A stretch of 54,719 nucleotides of DNA from a virus, in IMG/VR virus record IMGVR_UViG_3300042691_012197, positions 1 to 54,719 of that record; one strand, given 5' to 3'. A program made the translations under genes and the position numbers. Below the pieces are notes generated by a model, which was given only the letters and a program-made list of their open reading frames with translations, was not told where the DNA came from and searched no databases. Within the stretch, counting starts at the first letter, position 1; each line of letters opens with the position of its first letter. Positions 12,316-54,719 of the stretch are shown here, one piece after another.

Positions 12316-12354
12316 TGTATGTTTTTCCTCCGTATTACAATGCTTTATTTAAGT

Positions 12355-13925: not shown

Positions 13926-13926
13926 A

Positions 13927-14187: not shown

Positions 14188-14211
14188 AAGATACCTCAGA
14201 TTATATTTTAA

Positions 14212-14239
14212 TAATAACATGATCTAAATTATAAGTCAA
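14212..14239 (-). promoter_or_regulatory. Leftward promoter for regulator/lysozyme/ClpX operon
   Basis: Minus strand: TTGACT (14239-14234), a 16-base spacer, TTATTA (14217-14212) preceded by TG. It is weaker at the -10 box than the other promoters and lies 25 bases before the ATG at 14187. Confidence 0.6.
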
Positions 14240-38383: not shown

Positions 38384-38390
38384 GGATTAA

Positions 38391-38795: not shown

Positions 38796-38796
38796 A

Positions 38797-39765: not shown

Positions 39766-39780
39766 AGGTTTAGTATGTTA
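39219..39780 (+). repeat. Direct repeat of window positions 1-562
   Basis: Bases 39219 onward align without gaps to base 1 onward (offset 39218). I count about 22 mismatches, nearly all silent. Identity stops at the third codon of the following holin gene in both copies. The left end of copy A is cut by the window edge, so the repeat may be longer. Confidence 0.9.
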
Positions 39781-40215: not shown

Positions 40216-40283
40216 TCGTCGTTAAGTAGATTTAGTATTATTACCATAAATATAAAGATTGATACTAACATTAATAGGTTCAT
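40212..40283 (-). CDS. 23-residue membrane peptide
   Basis: MNLLMLVSIFIFMVIILNLL plus NDD: a single transmembrane helix. The ATG lies in the stop of the upstream gene (TAATG) with GGAGG eight bases before it. The end overlaps the convergent holin gene by four bases. It is very short, but the translation signals are good. Confidence 0.45.
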   Translation of the reverse strand: MNLLMLVSIFIFMVIILNLLNDD

Positions 40284-40576
40284 TATACTGCCTCCTTATT
40301 AAGTTCGTCTTCTAATAAAGCTAGTGCTAGGACTAAGCTGCAGGCTGCGTGTGCTATATGGTTTAAGCCGGACTCATCATCCAATTTACCTACATGTAGA
40401 TATTTGTACGTATGTCTTAACGATGCTTCAATAAAGTCTTTTGGATCTCCCTGCTTCCAGCATTGATCATCTCCATATTTACTTATACCAAACTCTCTAA
40501 CTTTAGATATAGCTTTTAAGGCCTGATATGGAATCAGGCTTAATCTCTCTTTACCCTGTACATCTTTAACTGTCAT
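40283..40576 (-). CDS. dATP/dGTP diphosphohydrolase-like protein (module B)
   Basis: 97 residues, equal to the N-terminal domain of 1656-2135: RLSLIPYQALKAISKVREFG, KYGDDQCWK, and ESGLNHIAHAACSL near 69. The C-terminal extension of the module A protein is absent. Role as for the homologue: likely nucleotide pool control. It follows the dUTPase-like gene by two bases. Confidence 0.68.
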   Translation of the reverse strand: MTVKDVQGKERLSLIPYQALKAISKVREFGISKYGDDQCWKQGDPKDFIEASLRHTYKYLHVGKLDDESGLNHIAHAACSLVLALALLEDELNKEAV

Positions 40577-40578
40577 GA

Positions 40579-40950
40579 TTAACCTTCTATTTTAATTGTT
40601 GCAGTTTTTATTATATGTATGGTTCCTATTATATCACCTGGGTTTACTGAGAATGACGTATACTTATTATTTACTAACCCTAGTACAACCTCACCAGTAG
40701 ACTCAGAGTCTAATATTGTTATCCCGTTTACCAATGATACGTTACTATTTAGTGATAAGAGTGGATCTATAGACAGTAAGCCTATATGACCTTCTGGAAG
40801 TGAGATTTTAATACCTGTTGGTATTACTACTGTTGTACCCATACCTATTAATACTGGTAGATTTATACCAGCTGTAACTACGATTTGAGAATCATCTGGT
40901 CGTATTATATGATCCATATGATTAGCTAATTTAGTTATTTTTACTTTCAT
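40579..40950 (-). CDS. dUTPase-like protein
   Basis: 123 residues. TTVVIPTGIKISLPEGHIGLL (about 38-58) fits the dUTPase/dCTP deaminase beta-fold around motifs 1 and 2. NGITILDSESTGEVVLGLVN (about 75-94) fits motif 3, and PGDIIGTIHII motif 4. Several canonical active-site residues are altered and the glycine-rich motif 5 is missing, so catalysis is uncertain. Module A lacks it. Confidence 0.65.
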   Translation of the reverse strand: MKVKITKLANHMDHIIRPDDSQIVVTAGINLPVLIGMGTTVVIPTGIKISLPEGHIGLLSIDPLLSLNSNVSLVNGITILDSESTGEVVLGLVNNKYTSFSVNPGDIIGTIHIIKTATIKIEG

Positions 40951-41129
40951 GTATTATACTCCTCTATATAACCTAATTTAATTAGCGACTTAACTACCAG
41001 CGCGTGTGATCCGCTGTGACTTAACATTAAGTAACTAAAATCGTTACTTGTAAACTGATTGATTACTTTGTATTCTTTTTTATTTATAGTGCGTACACTA
41101 CCAACTTTATATACAAAAACCTTTGTCAT
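40947..41129 (-). CDS. Hypothetical small protein
   Basis: 60 residues (MTKVFVYKVGSVRTINKKEY..., ending LGYIEEYNT), basic at first, perhaps a small beta-alpha fold. Four-base overlap with the dUTPase-like gene. Function unknown. Confidence 0.5.
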   Translation of the reverse strand: MTKVFVYKVGSVRTINKKEYKVINQFTSNDFSYLMLSHSGSHALVVKSLIKLGYIEEYNT

Positions 41130-41131
41130 GA

Positions 41132-41299
41132 TTACTCCTTGAAGCCTAGTCTACGAGCTTCCTCTACTACTGCCTCCTGTCCGTACTCTACTTCTAAGTT
41201 TACTACATAGTCTATTGTGCGCTTATCAACTAAGTAAGTAAACATTTTGTCATATGTTAGACGTGTAATAAAACGTTTCTGATTTGTAAAAACTGTCAT
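41132..41299 (-). CDS. Small conserved phage protein (EA..LGF family)
   Basis: 55 residues. KMFTYLVDKRTIDYVVNLEV then EYGQEAVVEEARRLGFKE aligns with 2360-2506 and the C-terminal half of 2137-2358. It lies in the same place, just after the exonuclease gene. GGAG precedes the ATG. Function unknown. Confidence 0.6.
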   Translation of the reverse strand: MTVFTNQKRFITRLTYDKMFTYLVDKRTIDYVVNLEVEYGQEAVVEEARRLGFKE

Positions 41300-41303
41300 G
41301 GCT

Positions 41304-42056
41304 TTACTCCTTTATATTAAAATATTTTGAGCATGATTTGCATAATAGGATCTGCTTACGTCCCGTCTTGTTATAGTATGATCCACGTTTAATAACATCG
41401 TGTGATGAGCAGTGTGGGCATAGGTTTGGCGCATCTACTGCAAATAGATTGCTGTTGATCTTTGTATCTACGTATGGTAATAATCTAATAAATACTTTCT
41501 CAAGAAGCTCTACGTCTACTTTATTGTATTCGGCCATCTTCTTAATTGCCTCGAGATCGCCATTAGCACATCGTACCCAATCCATAGCTTCCATCTTGTT
41601 TTTGACACCCTCACCTAACCAATACCCTATATGATCTAGTTTATTAGTATTTAGTTTGAAATGTTTCTTAACTAATTTGTATGTATCTATAGACTGCACA
41701 GGTTTTAGTGGATCTAACCCGTTAAGTAATACCCTAGAGTTAAACATCTTAATATCATGCTTATCTCCATAATGAGCTACAGTGTAGTCAGCCTCGTTAT
41801 ATATCTTAGCGAAAGCTTTGATTACTTCACTATCGTCATAGGGATCTTTCTTAAGATTCTTAGGGAAGTCAGCTGTAGATATTACCTGTGCTTCGCCTTC
41901 TTCAAACCACTTGTATGCTATAGATATTATAGAGTGTGTCTTCTCTATAAAAGGTAGCGTACCCATAGGTCCATTATAGACATTAAAGAAGTATCCTCTA
42001 TTAGGTAAATTCTCAATATCCCATATTAATATTTTAGGTTTATTAATTGTTGTCAT
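41304..42056 (-). CDS. DEDDy 3'-5' exonuclease with zinc ribbon (module B)
   Basis: 250 residues from the ATG at 42056, chosen because AAGGAG is correctly spaced and the start matches the module A protein. Exonuclease motifs: DIENLP near 11, AHYGDKHDIKMFNSR near 92, YNKVDVELLE near 174. The C-terminal zinc ribbon has CPHC and CKSC pairs. Same role as 2503-3261. Confidence 0.8.
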   Translation of the reverse strand: MTTINKPKILIWDIENLPNRGYFFNVYNGPMGTLPFIEKTHSIISIAYKWFEEGEAQVISTADFPKNLKKDPYDDSEVIKAFAKIYNEADYTVAHYGDKHDIKMFNSRVLLNGLDPLKPVQSIDTYKLVKKHFKLNTNKLDHIGYWLGEGVKNKMEAMDWVRCANGDLEAIKKMAEYNKVDVELLEKVFIRLLPYVDTKINSNLFAVDAPNLCPHCSSHDVIKRGSYYNKTGRKQILLCKSCSKYFNIKE

Positions 42057-42222
42057 TGTTGTTCTCCTTAGCATTATATCTATTGTACTTCTGTATTCTA
42101 TAATTGTCAAGATTTATTATCTCAGCACCTAAATACTTCTTAGTTACTGGGTTTGTTTGTATTGTTGACAGCATAGATAGCTGCATCTTTAGTAAGTATT
42201 CCATAATCATAAACCAGTACAT
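42043..42222 (-). CDS. Possible small protein between helicase and exonuclease
   Basis: 59 residues (MYWFMIMEYLLKMQLSMLST..., ending AKENNNDNN). The start is coupled to the helicase stop (TAATG) with GGGAGG upstream. The reading frame runs through the exonuclease promoter and overlaps its start. No homologue in module A. It could be spurious. Confidence 0.4.
   Translation of the reverse strand: MYWFMIMEYLLKMQLSMLSTIQTNPVTKKYLGAEIINLDNYRIQKYNRYNAKENNNDNN
42082..42110 (-). promoter_or_regulatory. Sigma70-type promoter for module B exonuclease genes
   Basis: Minus strand: TTGACA (42110-42105), a 17-base spacer, TACAAT (42087-42082). It is at the same place as the module A promoter 3285-3312 but lacks the TG extension. 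Confidence 0.65.
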
Positions 42223-43877
42223 TAGAAACCTCCCTTACTTTCTACGGAAGCTTCTACAAGCTTACATCCGTTTGTTGTTTTAAACCCAATAGTTCTTCCT
42301 AAACTTCCCTGCCTACTCTTTATAACTTCCACCACGAATGTTCCTGGTACATCATCGTAATAATCTGCTTCTATCTTCTCTCTAGGATTGTCTGGGTCTT
42401 TTACTTGTTTTACTGTTCCTGTAACTCTAGCTGATTCCTTATTCCACACTTTTAATATAAGCGCTGCTGTGAATGATATATCTTTACTCTCACGTGCTTG
42501 ATCTTGGAATGGGGTATCGCCAGAGGTAAGCTGTGATCCACCTACTATAATATACTTAAACTCATTTGCTAGTTGTCTAAATTTCTCCACTATGTTCTTA
42601 ACTTCTAAGTATCTTTCCTGCCTACCTCTGTTCGCCGGTACTAACTGTAGGTAATCTATGAATATAACCACTTTGCGCTTAAGCGCTGCTAAATATCTTA
42701 TTGTCTCCTCAACTTCTTCCACACCTACGTCAGCATCTGTTATGAATAACCTATCTTGTTGGATGTATTTATTTACTTCATCAACTTCTGGTAATTCATT
42801 ATTCTGTATCTTTTGTTTATATACTAAGTCATCTTTATAACCTACTGGATCAAAGGCTGTACCATTTAGGGTCTTTATCAACCTTAGTATAATCTCATCA
42901 TTAGGCATCTCGTAAGATAGGTATATACATGCTGTATTAGTCTGTCTTAAAAGATTTGCCATCATGTTTATTTGGAATAGTGACTTACCGTGGTTGGTAC
43001 GTCCTGGTATTACTACTAATCCGTGAGTCGGTAGCTTAATATACTTATCCATGCCTGGCCATCCTAGAGATAATCCTTCTTCGATATTCTCAAACATTGA
43101 TTGTACATTATCGGTATCTATTATACCTCTAAGCATTGGCTTAGCTACATTCTTACGTGTCTTGTATATCTCAGCTATTGTATCCAAAGATAAGTTATCT
43201 GCTAGATCTGTCTTTGGTGGTAAGCTACTCACATCTACTAAGTAGATACTCTTACTTTTTAATACTCCGGCTAGTTTATTCATTGCGTCCTTACCGGCTG
43301 GATCGTTATCTGGCCATAGTACTATATCCCTATTATCGATTTTGGCCCAATCCGCTAATAAGACTGCTGTCGCACCACCTTTCCAGCTAACAACGTCAGC
43401 CTTAGTGAATATTTTAGCGGCTGCATCAGCTGCTTTCTCACCCTCTACCACTAGTACAGGGCGACCATCATCATGCAGGAACTCTGATCTGTACAAGAAA
43501 GGTCCCTTGGTATCTGATGTTACCCACCCCTCATCGGTAAGTATGAATGGGCGTATCCACTTATCATCTCCAGATCCACGTCTAGCTATCAACATTACGC
43601 ATTTGTTATCTTTGTAATACTTATGGAATATAGTATCCTCTGATTCAAAGGGTACTTCCCCATCAGGTATTTCGATAGCGTCTGTAATCTGGACTTTTTC
43701 TATCTCATCCTTATCCATGACTATCCTCTCCTTTGTTTGTATGAATTCTTTATAGCCGCAGTGAAAGCACTTGTAGCTATATCCGGATTCAAATTCTATT
43801 ACTGAGCATGTAGCTAGATGTTTCTTCTTTCTTGAAGATGCACATTTAGGACATTGCTGTAGGGTTTTATTCAACAT
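42222..43877 (-). CDS. T7 gp4-like primase-helicase (module B)
   Basis: 551 residues, the same length as 3313-4968 and very similar throughout. Zinc domain CPKC/CFHCGY, TOPRIM VVEGEKAADAA and WPDNDPAG, Walker A GRTNHGKS near 292, Walker B VIFIDYLQLV near 399, GGSQL near 435. Start MLNKTLQQCPKC. It overlaps the 65-residue gene by 11 bases. Confidence 0.95.
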   Translation of the reverse strand: MLNKTLQQCPKCASSRKKKHLATCSVIEFESGYSYKCFHCGYKEFIQTKERIVMDKDEIEKVQITDAIEIPDGEVPFESEDTIFHKYYKDNKCVMLIARRGSGDDKWIRPFILTDEGWVTSDTKGPFLYRSEFLHDDGRPVLVVEGEKAADAAAKIFTKADVVSWKGGATAVLLADWAKIDNRDIVLWPDNDPAGKDAMNKLAGVLKSKSIYLVDVSSLPPKTDLADNLSLDTIAEIYKTRKNVAKPMLRGIIDTDNVQSMFENIEEGLSLGWPGMDKYIKLPTHGLVVIPGRTNHGKSLFQINMMANLLRQTNTACIYLSYEMPNDEIILRLIKTLNGTAFDPVGYKDDLVYKQKIQNNELPEVDEVNKYIQQDRLFITDADVGVEEVEETIRYLAALKRKVVIFIDYLQLVPANRGRQERYLEVKNIVEKFRQLANEFKYIIVGGSQLTSGDTPFQDQARESKDISFTAALILKVWNKESARVTGTVKQVKDPDNPREKIEADYYDDVPGTFVVEVIKSRQGSLGRTIGFKTTNGCKLVEASVESKGGF

Positions 43878-44064
43878 AAATTTTACCAGCTAACTTACGT
43901 GCTCTTATAGATAGTACTTTAGATCTTTCCATCAATAGTTCTACATCTATGATTGCACTTGGGTTATCCTCATTTATAGCTCTAGATGCTCGTATTGCAT
44001 CATCGACTGTTGTTTTCAACTCTGAGAGTAAAGTCTCTAGTGAGTATTGTTTAACTGTTTTCAT
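43867..44064 (-). CDS. Small helical protein between SpeD-like and primase genes (module B)
   Basis: 65 residues (MKTVKQYSLETLLSELKTTV..., ending RKLAGKIYVE), helical and mixed-charge. It is the positional counterpart of 4952-5131 without convincing sequence similarity. Four-base overlap with the SpeD-like gene. Function unknown. Confidence 0.6.
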   Translation of the reverse strand: MKTVKQYSLETLLSELKTTVDDAIRASRAINEDNPSAIIDVELLMERSKVLSIRARKLAGKIYVE

Positions 44065-44447
44065 TTTATTCTAACTGTACGATTCTCTATCTCGCCAGTT
44101 TCCCTATCAATTATTATTGCTTCGGCTATTAGGCTTCCCATATAATCGTATATGTGTTCGAATACAATGTCAATATCAAAATCTCTGCAGCTATATACGT
44201 CCATCATTAGTAAGTTTTCCTTATCCCATATATGATATGCTATATGTGACGTAGCTAGGTTTACAGATCCGGTTAATCCTTCGTTTCCTTCCTCGGATAC
44301 ATATACTGATCTGGCTGGAGTTACTTGTACCATTCCTATTTTCTCTATAAGGGATACCATGAATGTATTTCCTTGTGATTCAGATGTTATAGGTAAGGTT
44401 ACTTTAGCCTTTATTACTAAGTGTTTGTGTATTGGTTTGAATGCCAT
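44061..44447 (-). CDS. S-adenosylmethionine decarboxylase-like protein (module B)
   Basis: 128 residues. NLATSHIAYHIW and MDVYSC keep the cleavage serine, histidine and cysteine of SpeD, as in 5134-5529. GNEGLTGSVNLATSH is nearly the same in both modules, so the active-site region is under strong selection. It sits between primase and polymerase genes as in module A. Confidence 0.75.
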   Translation of the reverse strand: MAFKPIHKHLVIKAKVTLPITSESQGNTFMVSLIEKIGMVQVTPARSVYVSEEGNEGLTGSVNLATSHIAYHIWDKENLLMMDVYSCRDFDIDIVFEHIYDYMGSLIAEAIIIDRETGEIENRTVRIK

Positions 44448-44456
44448 GTTGTCCTC

Positions 44457-44681
44457 CTATTTATTAATTTTAGATACCATGTTATTAAAGATAGCGTCAA
44501 CTTTCTCTAACTGAGATAAGCTAGTGTGTTCGTTATGTACTATGTTTAAATGATATTTTATAAAACTTTTTAATGCTTTATTTTTTGGAGAAAAATCTTC
44601 TAGGGTATTTACGTTTTTATAAATAGAGCCTAAGATGGTTTTGATTCTGTTCTCGCTAGGTGTTTCTATTATATTTTTCAT
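44457..44681 (-). CDS. Hypothetical protein, module B only
   Basis: 74 residues (MKNIIETPSENRIKTILGSI..., ending IFNNMVSKINK), helical and basic. It reads as more AT-rich in codon choice than its neighbours, which hints at separate acquisition. CAGGAGA precedes the ATG; its promoter is at 44707-44735. Confidence 0.5.
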   Translation of the reverse strand: MKNIIETPSENRIKTILGSIYKNVNTLEDFSPKNKALKSFIKYHLNIVHNEHTSLSQLEKVDAIFNNMVSKINK

Positions 44682-44706
44682 TGTTGTTCTCCTGGGTTAT
44701 GATTTA

Positions 44707-44735
44707 AGGATACTACGCAATAAAACCGGTGTCAA
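44707..44735 (-). promoter_or_regulatory. Sigma70-type promoter for SpeD-like/primase genes (module B)
   Basis: Minus strand: TTGACA (44735-44730), a 17-base spacer, TATCCT (44712-44707). It lies between the polymerase stop and the 74-residue gene. Confidence 0.6.
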
Positions 44736-44740
44736 CATAT

Positions 44741-46522
44741 TTAATGAGTTTCTTTCCAAGAATTCCCAACTTTATACTCACCGTCCATTTTACATCTCAT
44801 TTTAAAATCTTCACCGGCCTTAATAATACCATCTCTAAATAATGATCCTATCTTCTCTGCTATCTCTGGTCTGCATTCTATCTGCGCTTCGTCGTGTATG
44901 TTTCCCACGTAGTTGTAATCTGTTCCTAGTAAGAACCCTTCTTTAGTGTATAGCTCATATGAATTTATTAATGCCTGCTTCATTATTATAGCGCCAGCTG
45001 ATTGTATTAAAAGGTTCAAGGCTGAGTATTCTTTTCTCGGATGTAGTGGCCTTCCATCTAAACCATTAAGATATTTCCGTTTTAGAAATACGTTCTGTAC
45101 ATCCTTAAGTAATTCTGAGTATCCAGTGAATTGTTCTTCAATTGTGTGGCGTAGCTGTGTACCAAGACGCATAAGCTTTACCGGATCCCTCTCTGCGACA
45201 CCCATGTCATCGGCCTTAATCTTTCCTAACTTAGCATTACCAGCTCCATACACCAGTGCATATATCATGGTCTTAGCACTATCACGTTTAGCTAATCCTG
45301 CAAGATCTTTGTTACGTGTGTGTACGTCGCCACTTTCTACCTCGATTGCAAATAAGCCTTTATCGTAGAATGATAGATAGTGTCCTAGTACTCTTAGTTC
45401 TAAGGATGATGCGTCACAGCCTACTAGCTTAAAGCCTTCACGAGGCTTCCACAAATCACGCATACGTAAATCCTTTTTATCTACCTGTGCTAGATTAGGT
45501 TTGGAGTGTGTACATCTAGAGGTGTTTGCCCCGTTGGTTATAACATCTCCGTGCACTCTTCCTGTGCGGTGATTAACACACTTAATCCACGCATATTGTC
45601 CGTCGTTTATCATACCTATTTGTTTCTGAAGTCTAAACATTCTCGCAGCAATAGCAGATGATTCAGTACCTATAGAGTCTAGGATTTTCTCATTAATTTC
45701 TGGCTGTCCTGCTTCGGTAAACTCTTTTGGTACCCACCCTAATTCCTTGAAGTATGCTATTAATTGTAGTCTACTGGTTGGATTAGGGTCAGTAAATTTA
45801 AACTCCTTAGTTACTACCTTTTTGTTAGAAGTATATGTATATGAGGTATCATTCTCTGACAGAAGGGCACCTTTCTTAATGACTGTTTTATAATGCGTTA
45901 AATCCTTTTGTGCTGGCATTAATGAACTTAATTTCTCTCTGAGTTCTTGGTACTCTATATTTAATTCGTCGTATAACTTCTTAGCTCCATCTACGTCTAA
46001 CGTGAATCCAGCCATGATTTGTTGGTTAATTAGATAGGCGAACTTGTGCTCTATGGTTATGAAGGTAGCGTTGATATCTACTTCAGATATAAGATGGTTA
46101 TAAAGTTTTTCGGTTACTACTACGTCCTGTATACAATACTTCACCATTTCTTCAGAGTATTGACTAAAATCATTAAACTCCGATTTATGTACGCCTAATC
46201 TTTGTCCCCAAGCGTTAAGGCTATGTCCGTTCTCCCGATCTGGGAGTAAGGCCCTACTTATTAGTATAGTATCAACTACTTTGGTAAAGTCATACTTTAC
46301 ATTATACAATCTTTTTAAACAAGGTAGGTCGTACATCATTATGTTATGACCAACTATCCTATCAGCTTTATCTAATATAGATTGTAATTCTACTAAGTGC
46401 TCTGGGTTCTTAAATGGTGTGAAGGTTCTTGTGGCTGTACCATTGCTGACTACTACGCACCAAACATCTGTAGCGTCTAAGAGTAATCCGTTTGCCTCAA
46501 TGTCTAGAAAGTATGTCTTCAT
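44741..46522 (-). CDS. T7-like family A DNA polymerase (module B)
   Basis: 593 residues. Exonuclease DIEANG near 6, GHNIMMYDLP near 58 and YCIQDV near 130. Polymerase motif A GCDASSLELRVLGHY, O-helix KTMIYALVYGAG (tyrosine at the position of E. coli Phe762), LIQSAGAIIMKQAL, motif C IHDEAQIE. It is the full-length homologue of 5598-7382. The gene follows erf by 20 bases. Confidence 0.95.
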   Translation of the reverse strand: MKTYFLDIEANGLLLDATDVWCVVVSNGTATRTFTPFKNPEHLVELQSILDKADRIVGHNIMMYDLPCLKRLYNVKYDFTKVVDTILISRALLPDRENGHSLNAWGQRLGVHKSEFNDFSQYSEEMVKYCIQDVVVTEKLYNHLISEVDINATFITIEHKFAYLINQQIMAGFTLDVDGAKKLYDELNIEYQELREKLSSLMPAQKDLTHYKTVIKKGALLSENDTSYTYTSNKKVVTKEFKFTDPNPTSRLQLIAYFKELGWVPKEFTEAGQPEINEKILDSIGTESSAIAARMFRLQKQIGMINDGQYAWIKCVNHRTGRVHGDVITNGANTSRCTHSKPNLAQVDKKDLRMRDLWKPREGFKLVGCDASSLELRVLGHYLSFYDKGLFAIEVESGDVHTRNKDLAGLAKRDSAKTMIYALVYGAGNAKLGKIKADDMGVAERDPVKLMRLGTQLRHTIEEQFTGYSELLKDVQNVFLKRKYLNGLDGRPLHPRKEYSALNLLIQSAGAIIMKQALINSYELYTKEGFLLGTDYNYVGNIHDEAQIECRPEIAEKIGSLFRDGIIKAGEDFKMRCKMDGEYKVGNSWKETH

Positions 46523-46542
46523 GGTACAACCTTATAAGTTAT

Positions 46543-47013
46543 TTAGAAGTCGAAGCCGTCTCCTGTTGGTGCAAAGGCTTTATCTGATTTTTTAAATCCA
46601 GGTGCCTGGGCTACTGACTTAACTGCGGCTTGTCTTCCCATTGCCTTTTCTCCGTCATCATCTTCAGCAGGAATGCCTAACATTGCCTGTAGTCCGTATC
46701 TTCTAGCGTATGTTATTGCACTACCTAAGGCCTGTGGGTCGTTCTGTTTAGCTACAACTACGGGCGTGGTACCAGATATAAACTCACCACTTTCGTGTAC
46801 TAGCGTTGTCTCTACTCCTGCTTCTGTTACTATCTGTAGGAACGCGATTCCGTTTTTAAGTAATGGCTCTTTGACTACAGAGACTACCTCTGCTAAGTCG
46901 GCGTATTTAGATTTAAAGAATGGGTTAGCTGCATCTTTCTTAGCTGATCCCATTGCTAGCTGTGCTTTTACTAGAGCGGTAGCTAACTTACCTATTGATT
47001 CACTTCTATTCAT
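46543..47013 (-). CDS. erf: ERF-family single-strand annealing protein (module B)
   Basis: 156 residues. NPFFKSKYADL, GIAFLQIV and DPQALGSAITYARRYGLQA match 7517-7960 almost word for word. The C-terminal linker is longer and ends DGFDF, an acidic-aromatic tip that could contact SSB or other replication proteins. Confidence 0.9.
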   Translation of the reverse strand: MNRSESIGKLATALVKAQLAMGSAKKDAANPFFKSKYADLAEVVSVVKEPLLKNGIAFLQIVTEAGVETTLVHESGEFISGTTPVVVAKQNDPQALGSAITYARRYGLQAMLGIPAEDDDGEKAMGRQAAVKSVAQAPGFKKSDKAFAPTGDGFDF

Positions 47014-47022
47014 AGTTTCCCC

Positions 47023-47607
47023 CTATAATATTTTTACTCTGTTATGTCCTATTCTCTCACGAATCTCAGTAGATGTCAAGATAATATCCATACCATTAAT
47101 GTATGCGAACTTCTGTTCTTCTGTGAGTGCTTTACGTGCTGATGTACTATTTAGTAAGTACTTGTTAAATGCTGTATTAAATTTAGGCTCAGTTACTAAT
47201 AGCCCATCCCTATCTGCTATACGTGGGGTGTGGAATAGAACCACTGCTGGACTATTTATGTATATATGATCTGCGTGAGCTAGTATGATTGCCCCGGCAG
47301 ACATTACATATTTAGGTACAATGATATCGAAGCTTCCTGTAATGCTTCTCAGTAGAGCAATTACATCTACCATAGATTCTAATTCTCCGCCATAAGTAGT
47401 TAGATTAATGCAGGGTTTGGAAACCTTTCCCAACAGCTGTTTCTTTACACTATCTACCATTTGCTGGTTTACCTCACCATTATATATTACACATGAATTA
47501 GCATCGATAGGCTCTGGCTCGGCGTATTGATAAGCAGTATAAAGCATTGATGTGGATATTGCCACTGCGCTTACTAATACTATTGCTTGTTTGAATATTG
47601 TATTCAT
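47023..47607 (-). CDS. Membrane-anchored ClpP-class serine protease (module B)
   Basis: 194 residues: an N-terminal transmembrane helix (about 6-28), then a ClpP/crotonase-like domain with NLTTYGGELESMVDV, YVMSAGAIIL (candidate serine) and VLFHTPRI (candidate histidine). It is the homologue of 8141-8770. Both lie just after erf and before the conserved helical gene, so the membrane form is ancestral to both modules and distinct from the soluble ClpP at 49231. Confidence 0.65.
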   Translation of the reverse strand: MNTIFKQAIVLVSAVAISTSMLYTAYQYAEPEPIDANSCVIYNGEVNQQMVDSVKKQLLGKVSKPCINLTTYGGELESMVDVIALLRSITGSFDIIVPKYVMSAGAIILAHADHIYINSPAVVLFHTPRIADRDGLLVTEPKFNTAFNKYLLNSTSARKALTEEQKFAYINGMDIILTSTEIRERIGHNRVKIL

Positions 47608-47615
47608 ATTATCCT

Positions 47616-47882
47616 CTATATCAGAGATCTAACTACTAGATTATCATATAATTTTAAGTAGTCAATATCTATTTGTTTACATATATCTCTTAGATAGTCG
47701 CTATTAAAAAATTCCTTAGCGTCTTTTCTTAGAAATCTATCTGAAGATTGTAAGTCTATTATACCGTAAACAATTACTGCTAACCACAGTCTTTTATATT
47801 CGGATCCGTAATCATCTTGTCTAAGCTGGTTCTTTCTAAGTGTATCTAATATCTCTAGTAAATCGCTTACATTAGTTTTCAT
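47616..47882 (-). CDS. Conserved hypothetical helical protein (module B)
   Basis: 88 residues from the ATG at 47882. This start is chosen because GAGGAT precedes it; the frame to 47903 would begin at the transcription start. KRLWLAVIVYGIIDL, LRKDAKEFF and ICKQIDID match 8763-9050. Function unknown. Confidence 0.6.
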   Translation of the reverse strand: MKTNVSDLLEILDTLRKNQLRQDDYGSEYKRLWLAVIVYGIIDLQSSDRFLRKDAKEFFNSDYLRDICKQIDIDYLKLYDNLVVRSLI

Positions 47883-47911
47883 CTTATATATCCTCATGTA
47901 CATATAACTAT

Positions 47912-47938
47912 ATTATATCAGTATGTACAAAAAGTCAA
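47912..47938 (-). promoter_or_regulatory. Sigma70-type promoter for protease/erf genes (module B)
   Basis: Minus strand: TTGACT (47938-47933), a 15-base spacer, TATAAT (47917-47912) with TGA before the -10 box. Confidence 0.7.
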
Positions 47939-47941
47939 GAA

Positions 47942-48595
47942 CTAATTATATAGCAGTTCTATACCGTCGTATATATGCTGTAGGATAATTCTTTTACTAG
48001 GTTGATGCACTACAAAGTTCTTATTATTCTCTAAACAATTCCAAAATCTATTGGTCTCTTCTAGTATAAGATCATGTATTATTTTATTAGGTTGTATCTC
48101 ATATCCTATTCCAGGAAATGGGGCGGTAAGGCTTAGACAAGCCAGGATACCTGACTTATATCCACTAATCATTAATTGAGTCTGTACCTGTAGAATGTAT
48201 GCAATGGGTGGATTTGAATCCCACTCACGTATTTTCTCTATTGTAGTCTTAGCCTCTACTATATGATTACCTTCTTCACTAATTATATAGCCATCTAAGC
48301 TTGCCGATATCTTAACGGTATCATGCGCAATCATTACTACATTACCGTCTCCGGGTTGTTTAGCAATAATACCTCGTTCACGTAAATCCATAAATACAGA
48401 ACTCTCAAAGATTCTTCCTGCGCGCATATGTATACTATCAAATGGCGGCTCAGGTATGAGTTTGGATTTGATTAGTTTATTGGCTGACTTATATGGATTC
48501 AATCCAAATAAAGATGCAACTTCGGTAGCAGTTAAATACTGTCTACGTTTGTGTAGCCACTCTGGAGAACCGTTGGTAAATTTAAATACTTGCAT
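47942..48595 (-). CDS. YqaJ-type exonuclease (module B)
   Basis: 217 residues, the same length as 9771-10424. NGSPEWLHKRRQYLTATEVA, LFGLNPYKSANK, ISASLDG near 122 and VEAKTT near 135. It is a 5'-3' exonuclease partner of ERF. It is read divergently from the DUF1064 gene. Confidence 0.9.
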   Translation of the reverse strand: MQVFKFTNGSPEWLHKRRQYLTATEVASLFGLNPYKSANKLIKSKLIPEPPFDSIHMRAGRIFESSVFMDLRERGIIAKQPGDGNVVMIAHDTVKISASLDGYIISEEGNHIVEAKTTIEKIREWDSNPPIAYILQVQTQLMISGYKSGILACLSLTAPFPGIGYEIQPNKIIHDLILEETNRFWNCLENNKNFVVHQPSKRIILQHIYDGIELLYN

Positions 48596-48656
48596 CCTAC
48601 CCCATTTGTATGGTAATATGTATCATCACTATTCAGTGTAACACAGAGGATGTATA

Positions 48657-49031
48657 ATGTCAACAAGATTTACTAAACGATCTAGATTTAATAACGTAAA
48701 GGTTACTGTTAATGGTCGTAAGTATGACTCAAGGTCTGAGGCTGAGTACGCAATGACACTAGTGAGGATGCTAGAGCTTAAGCAGATAAAAAGTATCAAG
48801 GAACAAGTAAGATATGCATTACCTAATATGGATGGTAAGTTAAAGATGGCTTACATTGCAGATTTTGTAGTTATAGGTAATAGTGGTAAGGAATATATAA
48901 TAGATGTCAAGGGTATGTTAACTCCTGAGATGAAGGTCAAGATGGCGTATTTTCAAACATATCACAATAAAAAAGTCCAGCTGGTTTTTACAACTGGACC
49001 TAAAGCTTTCGATGTATCGTTCTTAATATAA
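48657..49031 (+). CDS. DUF1064 nuclease, probable Holliday junction resolvase (module B)
   Basis: 124 residues. YDSRSEAEYAMTL, IKEQVRYALPNMDG, YIADFVV and DVKGMLTPEMKVK match 9114-9488. AGAGGAT lies before the ATG. It is again the only rightward gene within leftward neighbours, but it sits after YqaJ here and before it in module A. Confidence 0.8.
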   Translation: MSTRFTKRSRFNNVKVTVNGRKYDSRSEAEYAMTLVRMLELKQIKSIKEQVRYALPNMDGKLKMAYIADFVVIGNSGKEYIIDVKGMLTPEMKVKMAYFQTYHNKKVQLVFTTGPKAFDVSFLI

Positions 49032-49133
49032 TTTAATACCAAACGTAATTGCTAGATAGAGGAATGTTATCATACCTACTATATAGGATGGTAATATAAT
49101 AAACACTAGTATATTTCTTAATTTAGTTATCAT
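49023..49133 (-). CDS. 36-residue membrane peptide
   Basis: MITKLRNILVFIILPSYIVG... ending FGIKLY: two short hydrophobic stretches. It is coupled to the upstream peptide by ATGA and overlaps the convergent DUF1064 gene by nine bases. Function unknown. Confidence 0.45.
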   Translation of the reverse strand: MITKLRNILVFIILPSYIVGMITFLYLAITFGIKLY

Positions 49134-49228
49134 TGTATAAGCCCTGATAAAATTATAAACATTACTATATAAGTGAATGAGGATACTAAGAACATCAAAA
49201 ACATTATATATTCATTTCTATTATCCAT
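49130..49228 (-). CDS. 32-residue membrane peptide
   Basis: MDNRNEYIMFLMFLVSSFTY... ending LSGLIQ: one transmembrane helix after a polar start. The ATG is two bases after the ClpP stop, with AGAGG inside the clpP end. It may belong to the clpP transcript. Confidence 0.45.
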   Translation of the reverse strand: MDNRNEYIMFLMFLVSSFTYIVMFIILSGLIQ

Positions 49229-49230
49229 AA

Positions 49231-49821
49231 CTACCTCTTTTTCATTATTGAATCTACTAGGCCGTAATTAACTGATGCCTCTGCATCCAACCATAAATCT
49301 CTTGTAGTATCTTTTAGGATCTTACCAAGTGTGTGACCAGTATTATCAGCTAATATTTGCATAAGTTTTTTGTTAAGTTTTTTAGTGTGTTCGAACGATG
49401 CTTCCATATCCTGTACGTTACCACGCGTTCCTGCTGAAACCTGATGTAGCATGAACTGAGCATTTGGTAATATAAACCTTTTACCTAATGTTCCTGAGGA
49501 AGCTATTACTGAGCCCATAGAGCATGCGTATCCAGTTACAACTGTAACTACGTCTGGCTTGATTAGATTCATCGTATCTACTATAGATGTTCCTGATACT
49601 ACGCATCCACCAGGTGAGTTAATGTACATATAAATATCAGCATTCTTATCTTCTGATTCTAATAATAATAACTGGGCTATTATATCATCAGACATTAAAT
49701 GATTAACTTCGCCATTAACAAATATGATGCGTTCCCTGAGTAATCTGGAATAAACATCCATGGCTTTGACACCCTTGTCGCTTACTTCGTATGTTGTTGG
49801 TATAATTCTATTGTTGGTCAT
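49231..49821 (-). CDS. clpP: Soluble ClpP protease
   Basis: 196 residues from the ATG at 49821, chosen by GAGGAT spacing; TTG and ATG starts up to 49839 are possible. Classic ClpP landmarks: RIIFVNGEV near 30, YINSPGG near 66, ACSMGS with catalytic serine near 98, FMLHQ with catalytic histidine near 124, and a downstream acidic residue in TTRDLWLDAEA. No transmembrane helix. It should form a tetradecamer and degrade proteins fed by ClpX. Module A has no such gene. It overlaps the HNH-DUF5681 gene by 14 bases. Confidence 0.92.
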   Translation of the reverse strand: MTNNRIIPTTYEVSDKGVKAMDVYSRLLRERIIFVNGEVNHLMSDDIIAQLLLLESEDKNADIYMYINSPGGCVVSGTSIVDTMNLIKPDVVTVVTGYACSMGSVIASSGTLGKRFILPNAQFMLHQVSAGTRGNVQDMEASFEHTKKLNKKLMQILADNTGHTLGKILKDTTRDLWLDAEASVNYGLVDSIMKKR

Positions 49822-50482
49822 CGTTATCCTCATGATCAATTACTTTAGGTTCTTCTTTGGCTGGTATACTGTATTGTATCACATAATTCTTAACATCTTC
49901 GTTCTTGGTTTCTATACTAGCCTTACGTGGTGTTTGGTATACAGATAGTTCCTTAGCTAATTTCATTGCTGTACTTAAGTCTAAGTTAAGCTTACTACCA
50001 TTTTTCAATATCAATTGTTGGAACTTAACTGCATCCCCATCAGCTTCATCAAATATTGCATTGAGTGTGGCCTGCTGATCTTTAGCTATCTTAACAGTTT
50101 TAGGTCTACCATTAGCATTTCCTGAAACACCTTTAACGAACTTACCTCTATTACGTATTGAGGTAAGACCTTCTATATCTTTTATAGTTATAGATCCAGG
50201 CTCTGCCTCATAACGTATATCATTACCTTTTTCTTTATTCTGTGCGTGAGTTATAACCTGTAAGTTAGCTGGTACGTGTAGTCCGCATACTATTGGATTA
50301 TTAACTGGTATTATATGATCTACTTCATGCTGTACGCCTGTTGTTGCGCTTAGATGTTTTGCTAAATCATAGAACTTATTAATATGTGTCTTTTGTTCTA
50401 CTGTTAGCCAGGAAGGGGTAGCTGATTTAAGGCTATCCCTACGTCCGGCGCATTTATCTTTGTTTTTATTTATGTCTGCCAT
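49808..50482 (-). CDS. HNH endonuclease fused to DUF5681-type domain (module B)
   Basis: 224 residues. HNH core HEVDHIIPVNNPIVCGLHVP near 54, then KFVKGVSGNANGRPKTVK near 117 and LAKELSVYQTPRKASIETK near 178, parallel to 10421-11119. Candidate packaging factor for the same reasons. Confidence 0.7.
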   Translation of the reverse strand: MADINKNKDKCAGRRDSLKSATPSWLTVEQKTHINKFYDLAKHLSATTGVQHEVDHIIPVNNPIVCGLHVPANLQVITHAQNKEKGNDIRYEAEPGSITIKDIEGLTSIRNRGKFVKGVSGNANGRPKTVKIAKDQQATLNAIFDEADGDAVKFQQLILKNGSKLNLDLSTAMKLAKELSVYQTPRKASIETKNEDVKNYVIQYSIPAKEEPKVIDHEDNDDQQ

Positions 50483-50579
50483 ATCTATGTGCCTTTCTTT
50501 CTGCTGATGTTTCTAGTGCAAGTTTTAGTGTTGCTGGTATTACTAAATAAGCTACGCTTACTAATATTAAAGTTGTCAT
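50466..50579 (-). CDS. Small membrane peptide upstream of HNH gene (module B)
   Basis: 37 residues, MTTLILVSVAYLVIPATLKL then a basic tail ending HRYGRHK. It overlaps the HNH-DUF5681 start by 17 bases. It is the positional and topological match of 11121-11231. Confidence 0.5.
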   Translation of the reverse strand: MTTLILVSVAYLVIPATLKLALETSAERKAHRYGRHK

Positions 50580-50602
50580 CGTATTTACCTCTTATATTAA
50601 GT

Positions 50603-50875
50603 TTATTGTAATTTCTCAAGAATGTCAAGAGAATCTTTATAGTGTCCATATATTTCTTTATACATCTCAAAGCTTACTACTTTGGATTTACTTGTGTGGG
50701 CTTTTAGTAATTCGTACATAGCTTCGTTATGTTGTACTTCGTCTTCTAAAGACTCTAAATAGCTATCTAATTCGGAACCTTTTACTAACATTACTTGGTT
50801 TTCTTCGTCATTTACTGCTACATCGCTCCAACCTAATGTGTCATCAGTTACGAAATCTTTATAATATATAAACAT
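50603..50875 (-). CDS. Hypothetical acidic protein, module B only
   Basis: 90 residues (MFIYYKDFVTDDTLGWSDVA..., ending DILEKLQ), strongly acidic with a helical C-terminal half. TAGGAGG precedes the ATG. Nothing is recognised. Small acidic phage proteins can mimic DNA, but no evidence here goes beyond charge. Confidence 0.5.
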   Translation of the reverse strand: MFIYYKDFVTDDTLGWSDVAVNDEENQVMLVKGSELDSYLESLEDEVQHNEAMYELLKAHTSKSKVVSFEMYKEIYGHYKDSLDILEKLQ

Positions 50876-50884
50876 GGCTTCCTC

Positions 50885-51181
50885 CTATTGGAAAATTTTA
50901 TTACGTTTTCTTTGTTGTATACTTTGTTTCATGTGTTCTTTGTGAGCTTCGTTATCGGCTCTTAAGTAACCATTGCTTAAATATACTTTAATACTGTAGG
51001 CACAAATTAAACCACCAACTATTAATAAGGTTAATATAACAAGTCTATATATTACATATTGGTCTACAGTCAATACTTGGAAGTGTGTAAGTAGTTCACC
51101 AACCAACCAAGCTGCGTCTGCAGCTACTACACCCACGCCTGCTGCTGTGGCGATTATGAATGGGCTTTGAATCTTGGTCAT
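50885..51181 (-). CDS. Two-helix membrane protein, module B only
   Basis: 98 residues with hydrophobic segments at about 7-30 and 43-64, then a long basic cytoplasmic-type tail (KEHMKQSIQQRKRNK). It is downstream of the promoter at 51230-51258. Possible exclusion or holin-like protein; no family recognised. Confidence 0.6.
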   Translation of the reverse strand: MTKIQSPFIIATAAGVGVVAADAAWLVGELLTHFQVLTVDQYVIYRLVILTLLIVGGLICAYSIKVYLSNGYLRADNEAHKEHMKQSIQQRKRNKIFQ

Positions 51182-51229
51182 CTTATTTTCCTACTTTATT
51201 CTGTGAGGGTTAATTCCCTCTATAACTTA

Positions 51230-51258
51230 AGTATCGCTCTTTTCTAAACCGAAGTCAA
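51230..51258 (-). promoter_or_regulatory. Sigma70-type promoter, module B
   Basis: Minus strand: TTGACT (51258-51253), a 17-base spacer, GATACT (51235-51230). Upstream of the 98-residue membrane protein gene. Confidence 0.55.
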
Positions 51259-51268
51259 TACATTTTAT

Positions 51269-51454
51269 TTAAAAATGTCTACCATCTTCAAAATGATTAG
51301 GCATGTCAGTATCTGAGCCGATTAAGCTCTGCTCTATACCTAATTCTGGTGCAAAGATATATATTAGAGTTATAAGTACTACAGCAATTATTACTAATGA
51401 TAGTATTATTCTATTACTGTCCCTTTGTTGTGCTATATAAAATTCATCTAACAT
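51269..51454 (-). CDS. Single-helix membrane protein
   Basis: 61 residues: a polar N-terminus, one helix (about 16-35: IILSLVIIAVVLITLIYIF) and an acidic outside-type tail. Third gene of a cluster of tiny membrane proteins. Function unknown. Confidence 0.5.
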   Translation of the reverse strand: MLDEFYIAQQRDSNRIILSLVIIAVVLITLIYIFAPELGIEQSLIGSDTDMPNHFEDGRHF

Positions 51455-51458
51455 TTTA

Positions 51459-51539
51459 TTACCCCATTAATATTGTTACTACAATTATGCCTACATAACT
51501 TAAGAAGGCTACTAGTTTATATATTTCTGTTGAATTCAT
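51459..51539 (-). CDS. 26-residue membrane peptide
   Basis: MNSTEIYKLVAFLSYVGIIV plus VTILMG: one helix. GGAGG lies nine bases before the ATG, among the best ribosome sites in this region, and the stop is four bases before the next ATG. Confidence 0.45.
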   Translation of the reverse strand: MNSTEIYKLVAFLSYVGIIVVTILMG

Positions 51540-51558
51540 TTCTTCCTCCTGGCGACAC

Positions 51559-51660
51559 CTACCCGATTAAAGCTACAAGTAGAGTTACTCCTAGTATTAT
51601 TAATACATATACTGTTACTGATCTTAGTGTTAGGTTTTCTAGTTCGTTATTGTTTTTCAT
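51559..51660 (-). CDS. 33-residue membrane peptide
   Basis: MKNNNELENLTLRSVTVYVL plus ILGVTLLVALIG: a polar start and a C-terminal helix. First of the leftward tiny membrane protein cluster. Weak ribosome site. Confidence 0.4.
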   Translation of the reverse strand: MKNNNELENLTLRSVTVYVLIILGVTLLVALIG

Positions 51661-52115
51661 TTTATTAACTCTTTGGTTATATTATTATTGTACTCCTAAA
51701 AAAATATCAATACAAGTAAAATCTTTAGTAGGCTCCTGTGCTAGGTGGAACCTAGCTAGATTCAATATTCGTAAAAAGTCAAGTTATTTTTATACAATAA
51801 TTATGTTACAAACCCTTGACAAGGCTATTTTAAACTTGCTATTATACTAGAAGCTAACTGTAGTAGACTCAAGATACGAGTTATACTAATAGATAATAAG
51901 AGTATCGATGTTATCACATCTTACACGAGTTCGATTAAAATACTCTCTACTCTAGAACGATAAACACAATGAAACTAATAGTTACTCTATACACGGTCTA
52001 ATAGAGGTACTCATAAACTAAAATAATAATGCTTAAGGATATCTGTATCTATTATATTTATCTTGTAATATATGTATATGTGTGATATACTTAAAGTATA
52101 TAATAGAGGTGTGTT
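51661..52115. other. AT-rich noncoding divergent region (module B)
   Basis: No credible gene. It holds a rightward promoter (51816-51845) and then about 270 very AT-rich bases with short inverted repeats (AGAGTAT near 51899 with ATACTCT near 51941). It corresponds in position to the putative origin 14240-14490 but shares no long sequence with it. Possible origin of module B. Confidence 0.4.
51816..51845 (+). promoter_or_regulatory. Rightward promoter, module B
   Basis: TTGACA (51816-51821), an 18-base spacer, TATTAT (51840-51845) with TGC before the -10 box. It can drive the regulator-lysozyme-ClpX-SSB genes through a 270-base leader. Confidence 0.65.
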
Positions 52116-52388
52116 ATGACAGATAAATTTTCTATGATAGATAGGATGAATGAAGCCTTATCATTAAGGGACCACGAAGGTTTCTTTGTACTATTAGATA
52201 AATACATAACAACCTACTACGATTACGGCTATGTATCAGATATGCTTGGTAATAGTACTAGTGCAGAAGTGCTTAGTAATATGGTTAGAAGCGGTAAAAT
52301 AACACTAAGGATGCTAAATGTAGTATTACGTACGTTAAAAATCAAACTACGTCAAGAATCCCCACGCAATTATGAGGAGGTAGAGTAA
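52116..52388 (+). CDS. Small helical protein, possible regulator (module B)
   Basis: 90 residues (MTDKFSMIDRMNEALSLRDH..., ending PRNYEEVE). KYITTYYDYGYVSDMLGNST near 29 and RTLKIKLRQ resemble 13927-14187, and the gene again precedes the endolysin. Possible helix-turn-helix. The stop shares a base with the lysozyme start. Confidence 0.5.
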   Translation: MTDKFSMIDRMNEALSLRDHEGFFVLLDKYITTYYDYGYVSDMLGNSTSAEVLSNMVRSGKITLRMLNVVLRTLKIKLRQESPRNYEEVE

Positions 52389-52978
52389 TGCAGATATCTT
52401 CAGCCGGAATTAGATTAATCATGGACTTAGAGGGAATCAGTAACAAACGGTACAAAGATAGTGCTGGTCTAGATACTATAGGTGTAGGTCATCTTATATT
52501 GGATAATGATCCTAACTTGCATAAAGTTACTGGTATATCAAATAGTGATGAGGTTAAATCCCTTACTGACGCACAGATAATGAGGCTATTAGAGTTGGAT
52601 TTGGTAGGTTTCATTGCAGAGATTGATAGGGTAGGAGTTATATTTACTCAAAGCCAGTTTGACGCACTAGTAAGCCTTGTTTTTAATATAGGCGTAGGAA
52701 ACTTTAGAGGATCTACACTATTTAAATTATTATCTAGGCATAAAGGATCTAGGATACCAGATAGTAGAGTAGAGGATATATCACAAGAGTTTGGTAGATG
52801 GAGATATGCTGGTAAGAAAGAGATTAGAGGTCTTCTAGTAAGAAGATTGATAGAAACATTTATTTTCCTTGACAAAGCTAACGAGGATGCTATAATAGAA
52901 GGTGTAAGAGCTTCAGATATGGATTATATAATCTCCGTCTTTGAGGATTACAAAGTAAACAGAGCTCAACGAATTTAG
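52388..52978 (+). CDS. GH24 muramidase endolysin (module B)
   Basis: 196 residues. E in MDLEGISNKRYKD, D eight residues later, and T in DTIGVGH give the T4-lysozyme triad; SQFDALVSLVFNIG follows. It has a 35-residue C-terminal extension beyond the usual fold. GAGG precedes the ATG. No signal peptide. Homologue of 13371-13925 on the opposite strand. Confidence 0.9.
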   Translation: MQISSAGIRLIMDLEGISNKRYKDSAGLDTIGVGHLILDNDPNLHKVTGISNSDEVKSLTDAQIMRLLELDLVGFIAEIDRVGVIFTQSQFDALVSLVFNIGVGNFRGSTLFKLLSRHKGSRIPDSRVEDISQEFGRWRYAGKKEIRGLLVRRLIETFIFLDKANEDAIIEGVRASDMDYIISVFEDYKVNRAQRI

Positions 52979-52987
52979 CGGGTAACT

Positions 52988-53995
52988 ATGATTAACAATT
53001 TATACAACATCAGAGACTTAGATCCCGACGTTAAGGTTTATCTAGAACCACAGTTTAAACGTACACGTAAACCATCAGATTTGGTAGCAGAATTAGATAA
53101 GTTTGTTATTGGTCAAGATGCAGCTAAAAAGGCATTAGCTATTGCTATGGTTAACCATGAGGTTATAACTGAACACAATAGAAGGATTAAGAAGTCTGAA
53201 ACTAGATTAAAGAAAACTAACTTAATGCTAGTAGGACCATCTGGTACAGGTAAGACATACTTATTAGAGGTTATAGGGCGTACATTAGGAAAGGACGTAA
53301 TGGCCGTAGATATATCATCTTACACTCAAGCAGGCTATGTTGGTAGAGATCTAGACTCAATTATAACTGAGGCATGTGCTAGGTGCGACGATAATCCCGA
53401 AAGAGTGGAAAACATGATCATCTTCTTAGATGAGGTTGATAAGCTATCAGACCAAGAGGGCGTAGGTAAGGTCGGTACATTGGCCGTACAACAACAACTA
53501 CTAACCCTTATTGAGGGTCAAGAGGAGTATAATGTAACCAATGATAAAGGACGCAATACCGGCTTCCAAGTCGACACCCGTAACATCCTTTGGGTACTAG
53601 GTGGCGCATTCACTGCGTACAGAGAATCAGCTATTAAGAAACTTAAGAACCCTACCACAATAGGCTTTGCTACGGAAACCAAAGAACCAGAAGAGTTTGT
53701 GTTCGATCAACAACAAGCTATTAAAGCTGGATTACTAAGGGAATTAGTAGGGCGTATAGGGCAAGTTATAGAGTTACATGACTTAAGCAGAGAAGAGTGC
53801 TACAGAATTATGGTAGAACCAGTAGATTCTATAGTTAATCAGTATAAGATATTAGGGGAATTAAGAGGATTAAATCTAACACTAACCGAGAAGGAGATCT
53901 GGGATATAGTGGACGAAGCAATCCGCTTAAAGCTTGGTGCACGTGGATTAAGGACACTGGCAGACAAGTTAATGAAAGATCGTATGTATATATAA
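52988..53995 (+). CDS. clpX: ClpX-like AAA+ unfoldase without zinc domain (module B)
   Basis: 335 residues. FVIGQDAAKKALA, Walker A GPSGTGKT near 81, pore loop AGYVGRD near 109, Walker B IIFLDEVDK near 141, RNILWVLGGAF near 196, LVGRIGQVIEL, sensor II LGARGLRT. The loop that docks ClpP reads TTIGFATE, keeping the canonical IGF tripeptide, in the same module as a ClpP gene (49231-49821). The zinc domain is absent. Confidence 0.92.
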   Translation: MINNLYNIRDLDPDVKVYLEPQFKRTRKPSDLVAELDKFVIGQDAAKKALAIAMVNHEVITEHNRRIKKSETRLKKTNLMLVGPSGTGKTYLLEVIGRTLGKDVMAVDISSYTQAGYVGRDLDSIITEACARCDDNPERVENMIIFLDEVDKLSDQEGVGKVGTLAVQQQLLTLIEGQEEYNVTNDKGRNTGFQVDTRNILWVLGGAFTAYRESAIKKLKNPTTIGFATETKEPEEFVFDQQQAIKAGLLRELVGRIGQVIELHDLSREECYRIMVEPVDSIVNQYKILGELRGLNLTLTEKEIWDIVDEAIRLKLGARGLRTLADKLMKDRMYI

Positions 53996-54009
53996 GGAGG
54001 ATTTAATAT

Positions 54010-54309
54010 ATGGCAGATCGTAAATTTATATCAAGATTGTTCCTAAACAAGGCAAAGGACTCAGGTAAAGTATATCTGAAAGGTACAATTAAGATAGCTA
54101 AAGAAGAACTAAAGGCCTTCCTACAGAGTGATGGATCAGTAGAGATACCAGTATTCGGGCACACATTCGAAGGTAAAGACAAACAAGACAATGTATATAA
54201 AGCATATAATTTAGAGGTAGTATATGAAAGTAATTCTAAAGACGTTAAAGGTTTTAAAAAAGAGAATACTAAAACTTTTAAAAACAATTCTCTAGATACA
54301 CCATTCTAA
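54010..54309 (+). CDS. SSB-like small protein with C-terminal PF tip (module B)
   Basis: 99 residues. ADRKFISRLFLNKAKDSGKV, YLKGTIKI, VEIPVFGHTF and YKAYNLEVVYE match 12007-12315. A lysine-rich linker and SLDTPF end it. AAGGAGG precedes the ATG. The same arguments for an SSB role apply. Confidence 0.5.
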   Translation: MADRKFISRLFLNKAKDSGKVYLKGTIKIAKEELKAFLQSDGSVEIPVFGHTFEGKDKQDNVYKAYNLEVVYESNSKDVKGFKKENTKTFKNNSLDTPF

Positions 54310-54342
54310 GATAAACATAAGACAATAATAGTTATACAAAGA

Positions 54343-54374
54343 GGGGGCTAGCAATAGTCCCCTTAAATATTTTA
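54343..54374 (+). terminator. Intrinsic terminator after SSB-like gene (module B)
   Basis: GGGG(G)CTA and TAG(T)CCCC form a stem with a GCAA loop; TTAAATATTTT follows. An AT-rich promoter-like stretch with TATTAT (54399 region) comes next. Confidence 0.75.
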
Positions 54375-54434
54375 CTGGACTTTACTTAAGAAATGTAGTA
54401 CTATTATATTATAGATAAGAAGTTGAGGTACACA

Positions 54435-54605
54435 ATGGCCTACAAATTCAAAGTAAGAGACGAGTCTCCGGAAGATATGGATACCAAAGATATCTTACAG
54501 TATCTAGATAGAATGAGAACTAACTTTAAAGACAGTACAGATAAAGATGAACTTAAATCATCGCTAGAATTCTTAAAGAATATGTTAGGAGAGGATAATA
54601 AATGA
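54435..54605 (+). CDS. Small acidic early protein (module B)
   Basis: 56 residues from the ATG at 54435 (GAGG seven bases before; an upstream TTG is rejected). Charged and helical (SPEDMDTKDILQYLDRMRTN), ending GEDNK. It opens a new rightward run after the terminator, probably the early genes of module B. Four-base overlap with the next ORF. Confidence 0.55.
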   Translation: MAYKFKVRDESPEDMDTKDILQYLDRMRTNFKDSTDKDELKSSLEFLKNMLGEDNK

Positions 54606-54719
54606 CAATAAGAATATTTAAATCTATAGAGTATATGGATAGAGATGGGGAGCAGCCAAGCTTTCATTTGTACCAAGCAAAGAAGGTTAGGTACAACCCA
54701 GAGTCAACAGTTATACAGG
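54602..54719 (+). CDS. Hypothetical protein, cut by window end
   Basis: The ATG overlaps the previous stop. 39 residues are visible (MTIRIFKSIEYMDRDGEQPS..., open at the window edge). No domain can be named. Confidence 0.5.
   Translation, partial: MTIRIFKSIEYMDRDGEQPSFHLYQAKKVRYNPESTVIQ

Follow-up and report, generated by a model that had tools for sequence, protein, structure and literature searches.

The window, the whole stretch of 54,719 bases analysed here as one virus record, encodes two ClpX-like unfoldases and one soluble ClpP, accompanied by lysozymes, small proteins and signal-anchored ClpP-like proteins. The features relevant to the analysis, assigned to phage A or phage B as explained below, are the following:

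8141-8770, minus strand: signal-anchored ClpP-like protein of phage A, without docking pocket
12007-12315, minus strand: small protein after clpX A, possibly binding single-stranded DNA (from sequence only; tip LPF)
12355-13371, minus strand: clpX A, 338 aa, with an MGF docking loop and the same losses as clpX B
13371-13937, minus strand: phage lysozyme directly upstream of clpX A (Pfam Phage_lysozyme, 3.9e-34)
39031-39086, no strand: 56-bp stretch of the switch from A to B, common to both and inside tail-fibre genes
47023-47607, minus strand: signal-anchored ClpP-like protein of phage B, without docking pocket
49231-49839, minus strand: clpP B, soluble ClpP (Pfam CLP_protease, 1.1e-66; 202 aa as listed)
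49808-50482, minus strand: gene upstream of and overlapping clpP B, HNH-type nuclease-like by eye (in Pfam, a weak DUF5681 match only)
52388-52978, plus strand: phage lysozyme directly upstream of clpX B (Pfam Phage_lysozyme, 8.7e-26)
52988-53995, plus strand: clpX B, 335 aa, with an IGF docking loop, without zinc domain and RKH motif, and with a short pore-2 stretch and C terminus
54010-54309, plus strand: small protein after clpX B, possibly binding single-stranded DNA (from sequence only; tip TPF)

The preliminary description had divided these genes into two modules, A and B. Its gene content was right, but it missed that the modules belong to two different phages. Window positions 38350-54719 match the first 16,370 bases of IMGVR_UViG_3300008105_000027 (phage B), a record of 39,257 bp that has its own structural genes and, because a 103-base repeat is present at its ends, was read as a closed circle. 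Base-by-base comparison revealed identity over 38350-38463, 58 differences in the 567 positions of 38464-39030, identity over 39031-39086 and 39091-39566, and then 100% identity without exception over 39569-54719, while the stretch to the left of the match (37223-38349) is 23% different. Phage A thus occupies the window from position 1 to about 39,030, and phage B continues from there. Independent contigs match phage A at 100% over 208-22887 and extend to 33895, and the A-to-B junction was found in no other record recovered. The contig is therefore chimeric, two sister podoviruses of about 39 kb each having been wrongly joined, and the join at 38350-39568 affects any claim that takes modules A and B as one genome. 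A true A/B recombinant is unlikely, because a single genome would then have two polymerases, helicases and lysozymes. Likewise, one real genome with two ClpX proteins and one ClpP, which would explain why both modules share a contig, is hardly credible: phage B closes as its own 39-kb circle, divergence of the contig from B drops abruptly from 10-23% to none, and almost all core genes would be doubled. We rejected it.

Phages A and B have most genes in common, in largely the same order, and their head proteins are 83% identical. Their genes include a family A polymerase, a DnaB-like helicase, ERF and YqaJ, and the portal is 36% identical to that of HTVC010P-type pelagiphages, podoviruses of similar size; unlike A and B, HTVC010P has no ClpX or ClpP annotated. 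Searching IMG/VR with the head protein and helicase yielded only fragments of the two phages themselves, a single additional close relative (L024) and two remote helicase matches. S-adenosylmethionine decarboxylase-like genes lie at 5134-5529 and 44061-44447 (both minus strand), the B copy with a Pfam AdoMet_dc match. Judging by position, only about 200 bases of one fibre gene of phage A are missing from the window, so the absence of a soluble ClpP from this phage is solid; the only ClpP match in A is the signal-anchored protein at 8141-8770, which confirms the earlier statement that module A has a ClpX and no soluble ClpP. The signal-anchored proteins of the two phages are ClpP/NfeD-like, with an SAG serine and a histidine, and are 30% identical to each other; the B copy had no match in annotated phages.

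We next consider the ClpP of phage B. Its listed reading frame starts with TTG, and the first ATG, at 49833, would give 200 aa and overlaps the end of the upstream gene. When the protein was compared to solved structures, the best 60 of the 110 distinct matched sequences were all ClpP. The catalytic triad is complete, comprising the SMGS serine (Ser107) and the LHQ histidine (His132), both read correctly before, as well as Asp181. At the residues that we take to form the docking pocket of E. coli ClpP (Leu48, Tyr60, Tyr62, 90, 92, Phe112, Leu114 and 189), ClpP B has the same residue as E. coli at the equivalents of Leu48, Tyr60, Tyr62, Phe112 and Leu114, a conservative change at 90 and at 189, and Thr in place of Met92. 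The hydrophobic pocket for the docking loop of an ATPase is thus mostly kept, and together with the N-terminal hairpin it resembles that of ordinary ClpP. Relatives closer than about 52% were absent from annotated phages, and searches that see close relatives only returned none closer than 47% in bacterial genomes and none closer than 46% in other viral contigs.

The nearest PHROGs families of ClpP B are named head maturation protease, which could suggest a role in capsid maturation. We consider this far-fetched, as the PHROGs name follows the shared fold, and clpP B lies in the early module by the recombination genes and not by the portal, with no counterpart in sister phage A despite the 83% identical head protein; neither a head-module location nor sharing among phages with the same head was found. 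Another reading is that ClpP B acts without ClpX B, joining host ClpP or host Clp ATPases and changing their output, for example in mixed rings. The ordinary appearance of its pocket and hairpin would fit, as would the fact that clpP and clpX are not co-transcribed. However, the same phage encodes a ClpX with a docking loop, and none of the cellular ClpP proteins found is more than about 50% identical to ClpP B, which makes mixed rings less likely. We hold this reading to be quite improbable.

The two ClpX proteins are 48% identical to each other, and their best solved relatives are ClpX structures (4.6e-50 for ClpX B, 4e-53 for ClpX A). HslU was rejected as an identity on scores, ClpX B reaching 174 bits to ClpX versus 106 to HslU. 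We aligned A and B with the E. coli protein, seven other bacterial ClpX and seven ClpX of jumbo or huge phages. Both viral proteins keep Walker A, Walker B, the GYVG pore-1 loop, the arginine finger and sensor 2 (GAR), and their docking loops, TIGFA in B and SMGFA in A, bear out the earlier reading of IGF and SMGF. Several parts are gone. The RKH motif, GGRKH in all aligned bacteria, is replaced in A and B, as it is lost in some other viral ClpX; the RKH loop has been described as unique to ClpX-family enzymes, and with it gone we file A and B as divergent ClpX-like motors and not as canonical ClpX. The pore-2 stretch comprises 12 residues as compared to 16-17 in all other aligned ClpX, and four of its residues, including the Thr199 position, are missing. 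About 38 C-terminal residues are lacking as well, both proteins ending one residue after MY, a short distance ahead of the next gene. In agreement with the preliminary description, the N-terminal C4 zinc domain is absent from both, the zinc cysteines being missing from the alignment. Engineered E. coli ClpX without this domain still works with ClpP (structures, PMC7112951), so the domain is not needed for the motor.

An AlphaFold2 model of ClpX B, built from 8 sequences, had a mean pLDDT of 67.8, with the small domain mostly above 80. The best Foldseek matches were all ClpX chains, most from ClpXP complexes; because the domain angles differ from those of the matched chains (TM about 0.55), the model supports the fold only. 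In a tree, the A/B pair stands apart (SH-aLRT 100, stem of 1.88 changes per column). ClpX A and B thus form a deep clade of their own, whose long branch leaves its placement unsure. The data do not support a recent capture of either gene, clpP or clpX, from a host, given the best bacterial ClpP at 47% and the stem of 1.88.

The lost positions bear on substrate choice. E. coli ClpX depends critically on Tyr153, Val154, Thr199, Val202, Arg228 and His230 for the ssrA tag; in human ClpXP, leucine stands where E. coli has Thr199 and His230, and ssrA substrates are not degraded (PMC7652416). As ssrA-reading positions of RKH and pore-2 are lost in A and B, the viral motors are predicted to ignore ssrA-tagged proteins. 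The phage proteins were also screened for ssrA-like tails that could mark them as targets; such tails were absent, apart from two open reading frames antisense to larger genes. The proposal of a phage-owned ClpXP with altered substrate choice in B is thus supported by these residues and gains a stronger basis than before, since the losses extend beyond the zinc domain to RKH and to some of the pore-2 loop. The first substrate candidates are DNA-metabolism or defence proteins, because replication and recombination genes adjoin.

The docking loop was examined more broadly, using 80 loci of at least 530 IMG/VR matches to viral ClpX; this set includes near-identical records, many fragments and some records resembling host DNA or the flanks of prophages. 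All 80 proteins, like A and B, retain the docking motif xG[FILY]. Its first letter is I in 55, M in 17, V in 4, L in 2 and F in 2 records, and the M variants include proteins with zinc domain and RKH intact. ClpP (PF00574) was present in 33 of the 80 records, and six of the 17 M-type motifs occur in records with ClpP. M versus another letter showed no association with ClpP presence in the 80 records (Fisher p 0.78), nor in those over 50 kb (p 0.48) or over 100 kb (p 0.36). We therefore reject the idea that MGF signals the loss of a ClpP partner, and the weaker ClpP contact formerly suggested for A is not supported by this motif, which is common in viral ClpX whether or not the record has a ClpP. 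In E. coli ClpX, I268L is defective, its docking being weakened (PMC7112951), and docking strength is accordingly not readable from sequence alone. The docking loops are 18 (A) and 17 (B) residues long, within the 17-21 of the aligned bacteria. In the loop surrounding the motif, A and B agree at just 7/36 positions, but both retain GFA; this is the best indication that selection for docking persists in A, where the partner would presumably be a host ClpP. Of ten small ClpX-bearing contigs checked for completeness, none had end repeats.

In phage B, clpP and clpX do not form one operon: 3.1 kb separates the two genes, which are oriented divergently on different strands. In both phages, clpX lies between the lysozyme and the possible single-strand binding protein; the latter is 50% identical between B and A, and the B copy has no family match in Pfam or PHROGs. 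The block of small protein, lysozyme, clpX and possible single-strand binding protein spans 11294-14220 (minus strand) in A and 52116-54309 (plus strand) in B, its orientation thus being inverted between the phages relative to the rest of the early module. In B, it is flanked by a 150-bp inverted repeat (84%; window 51857-52006 and L006:18633-18780), which could allow inversion or carry shared regulatory sites. A perfect sigma-70-type promoter match (TTGACA, spacing of 16, TATAAT, with TG) sits at 52869-52896 on the plus strand, within the lysozyme gene and a short way upstream of clpX B, although promoter-like matches are overall no commoner than chance.

Host ClpX remodels the transposase of phage Mu, and viral ClpX could similarly work for the most part on its own, as an unfoldase remodelling a phage complex for replication, recombination or packaging; ClpP B would then be a separate gain. 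Consistent with this, ClpX is present in both phages and ClpP in B only, clpX is fixed beside the lysozyme and the possible single-strand binding protein and not beside clpP, and 47 of the 80 viral ClpX records, many of them fragments, show no ClpP. A pure remodeller, however, would not need docking, and the retention of the docking motif in A, B and all 80 viral ClpX makes us regard the stand-alone role as rather unlikely.

ClpXP as such is known from jumbo phages, and viral ClpX is widespread in IMG/VR. Bacterial ClpXP of E. coli shares with the viral proteins the ATPase motifs, the GYVG pore-1 loop, the xGF docking loop, and the ClpP triad and pocket. E. coli ClpX is about 34% identical to the viral pair and differs in having the zinc domain and RKH, a pore-2 stretch of 16 instead of 12 residues and a C terminus that is about 38 residues longer; in phage B, moreover, clpP and clpX are not adjacent. 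Of the jumbo phages compared (phage G gp257/gp258, Atu_ph07, Phosso, Lak, PA5oct), several have both ClpX and ClpP, as described for Atu_ph07 (PMC6102473) and reviewed in an overview (PMC7824862), and in phage G the two genes lie side by side. Unlike the 39-kb phages A and B, these phages have genomes of 286-552 kb, and their ClpX proteins keep the zinc domain, the C terminus and, except in PA5oct, an RKH-like motif. The ClpX of uncultured phage LR756504 (636 kb) resembles A and B in being without zinc domain and RKH motif, but its pore-2 stretch is not shortened, its C terminus is longer, and it does not group with A and B in one clade. The other IMG/VR viral ClpX differ in that 72 of 80 have the zinc domain and none is closer than about 37% identity. 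The ClpX of Lak phage C1 (L049) carries a long, intein-like insertion at Walker B, and several viral ClpX records, namely those of L096, L105, L109, L112, L122 and L133, carry a pair of ClpP-family genes, a full one and a divergent one, within about 2.7 kb. New are the minimal ClpX in a podovirus of 39 kb, the separate position of the A/B pair in the tree, and sister phages of which one has ClpP and the other lacks it.

Taking these data together, we favour, as somewhat probable, a phage-owned ClpXP with a retargeted, minimal ClpX in phage B, and the same motor working most likely on host ClpP in phage A. It is supported by the assignment of both families by sequence and the matching of the model to ClpX chains, by the complete ATPase motifs, the ClpP triad and most pocket residues, by GFA in an otherwise variable loop, by the losses at ssrA-reading positions, and by the jumbo phage precedents; the presence of clpP in the early module and its absence from the sister phage speak against a capsid role. 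Set against it are the divergent, unlinked arrangement of clpP B and clpX B, the Thr at the Met92 pocket position and the Thr or Ser at Val274 of the docking loop, the missing C-terminal strands of the ClpX small domain, and phage A itself, which shows that ClpP is dispensable in this phage group.

From these features we infer assembly of ClpX with ClpP, docking, activity and a changed choice of targets. ClpX A and B would be ATP-driven unfoldases cut down to the motor core, in which rings most likely draw selected proteins through the pore at the expense of ATP. The loop that plugs into ClpP is retained, whereas the zinc domain, with which bacterial ClpX accepts adaptors, and the RKH motif and pore-2 threonine, with which it accepts ssrA-tagged proteins, have been lost. 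In phage B, ClpX B may feed the catalytically complete ClpP B, leading to the degradation of proteins other than the usual host targets, whereas in phage A, the same motor would most likely dock on host ClpP, or release unfolded chains. A wider proposal, which we regard as doubtful, is that the deep viral clade, without the recognition elements known from bacteria, represents an unfoldase specific to phages that follows a degron code of its own, and that phages of this group shift it between remodelling and proteolysis by gain and loss of a ClpP gene.

Phages exploit or redirect host Clp proteases. That a 39-kb phage devotes about 1.6 kb to a ClpX and a ClpP of its own suggests an importance of selective protein unfolding in the course of infection. 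Phages A and B allow this motor to be compared, in a natural setting, in the presence and in the absence of a phage ClpP, and the minimal ClpX would test, beyond engineered mutants, which loops set substrate choice.
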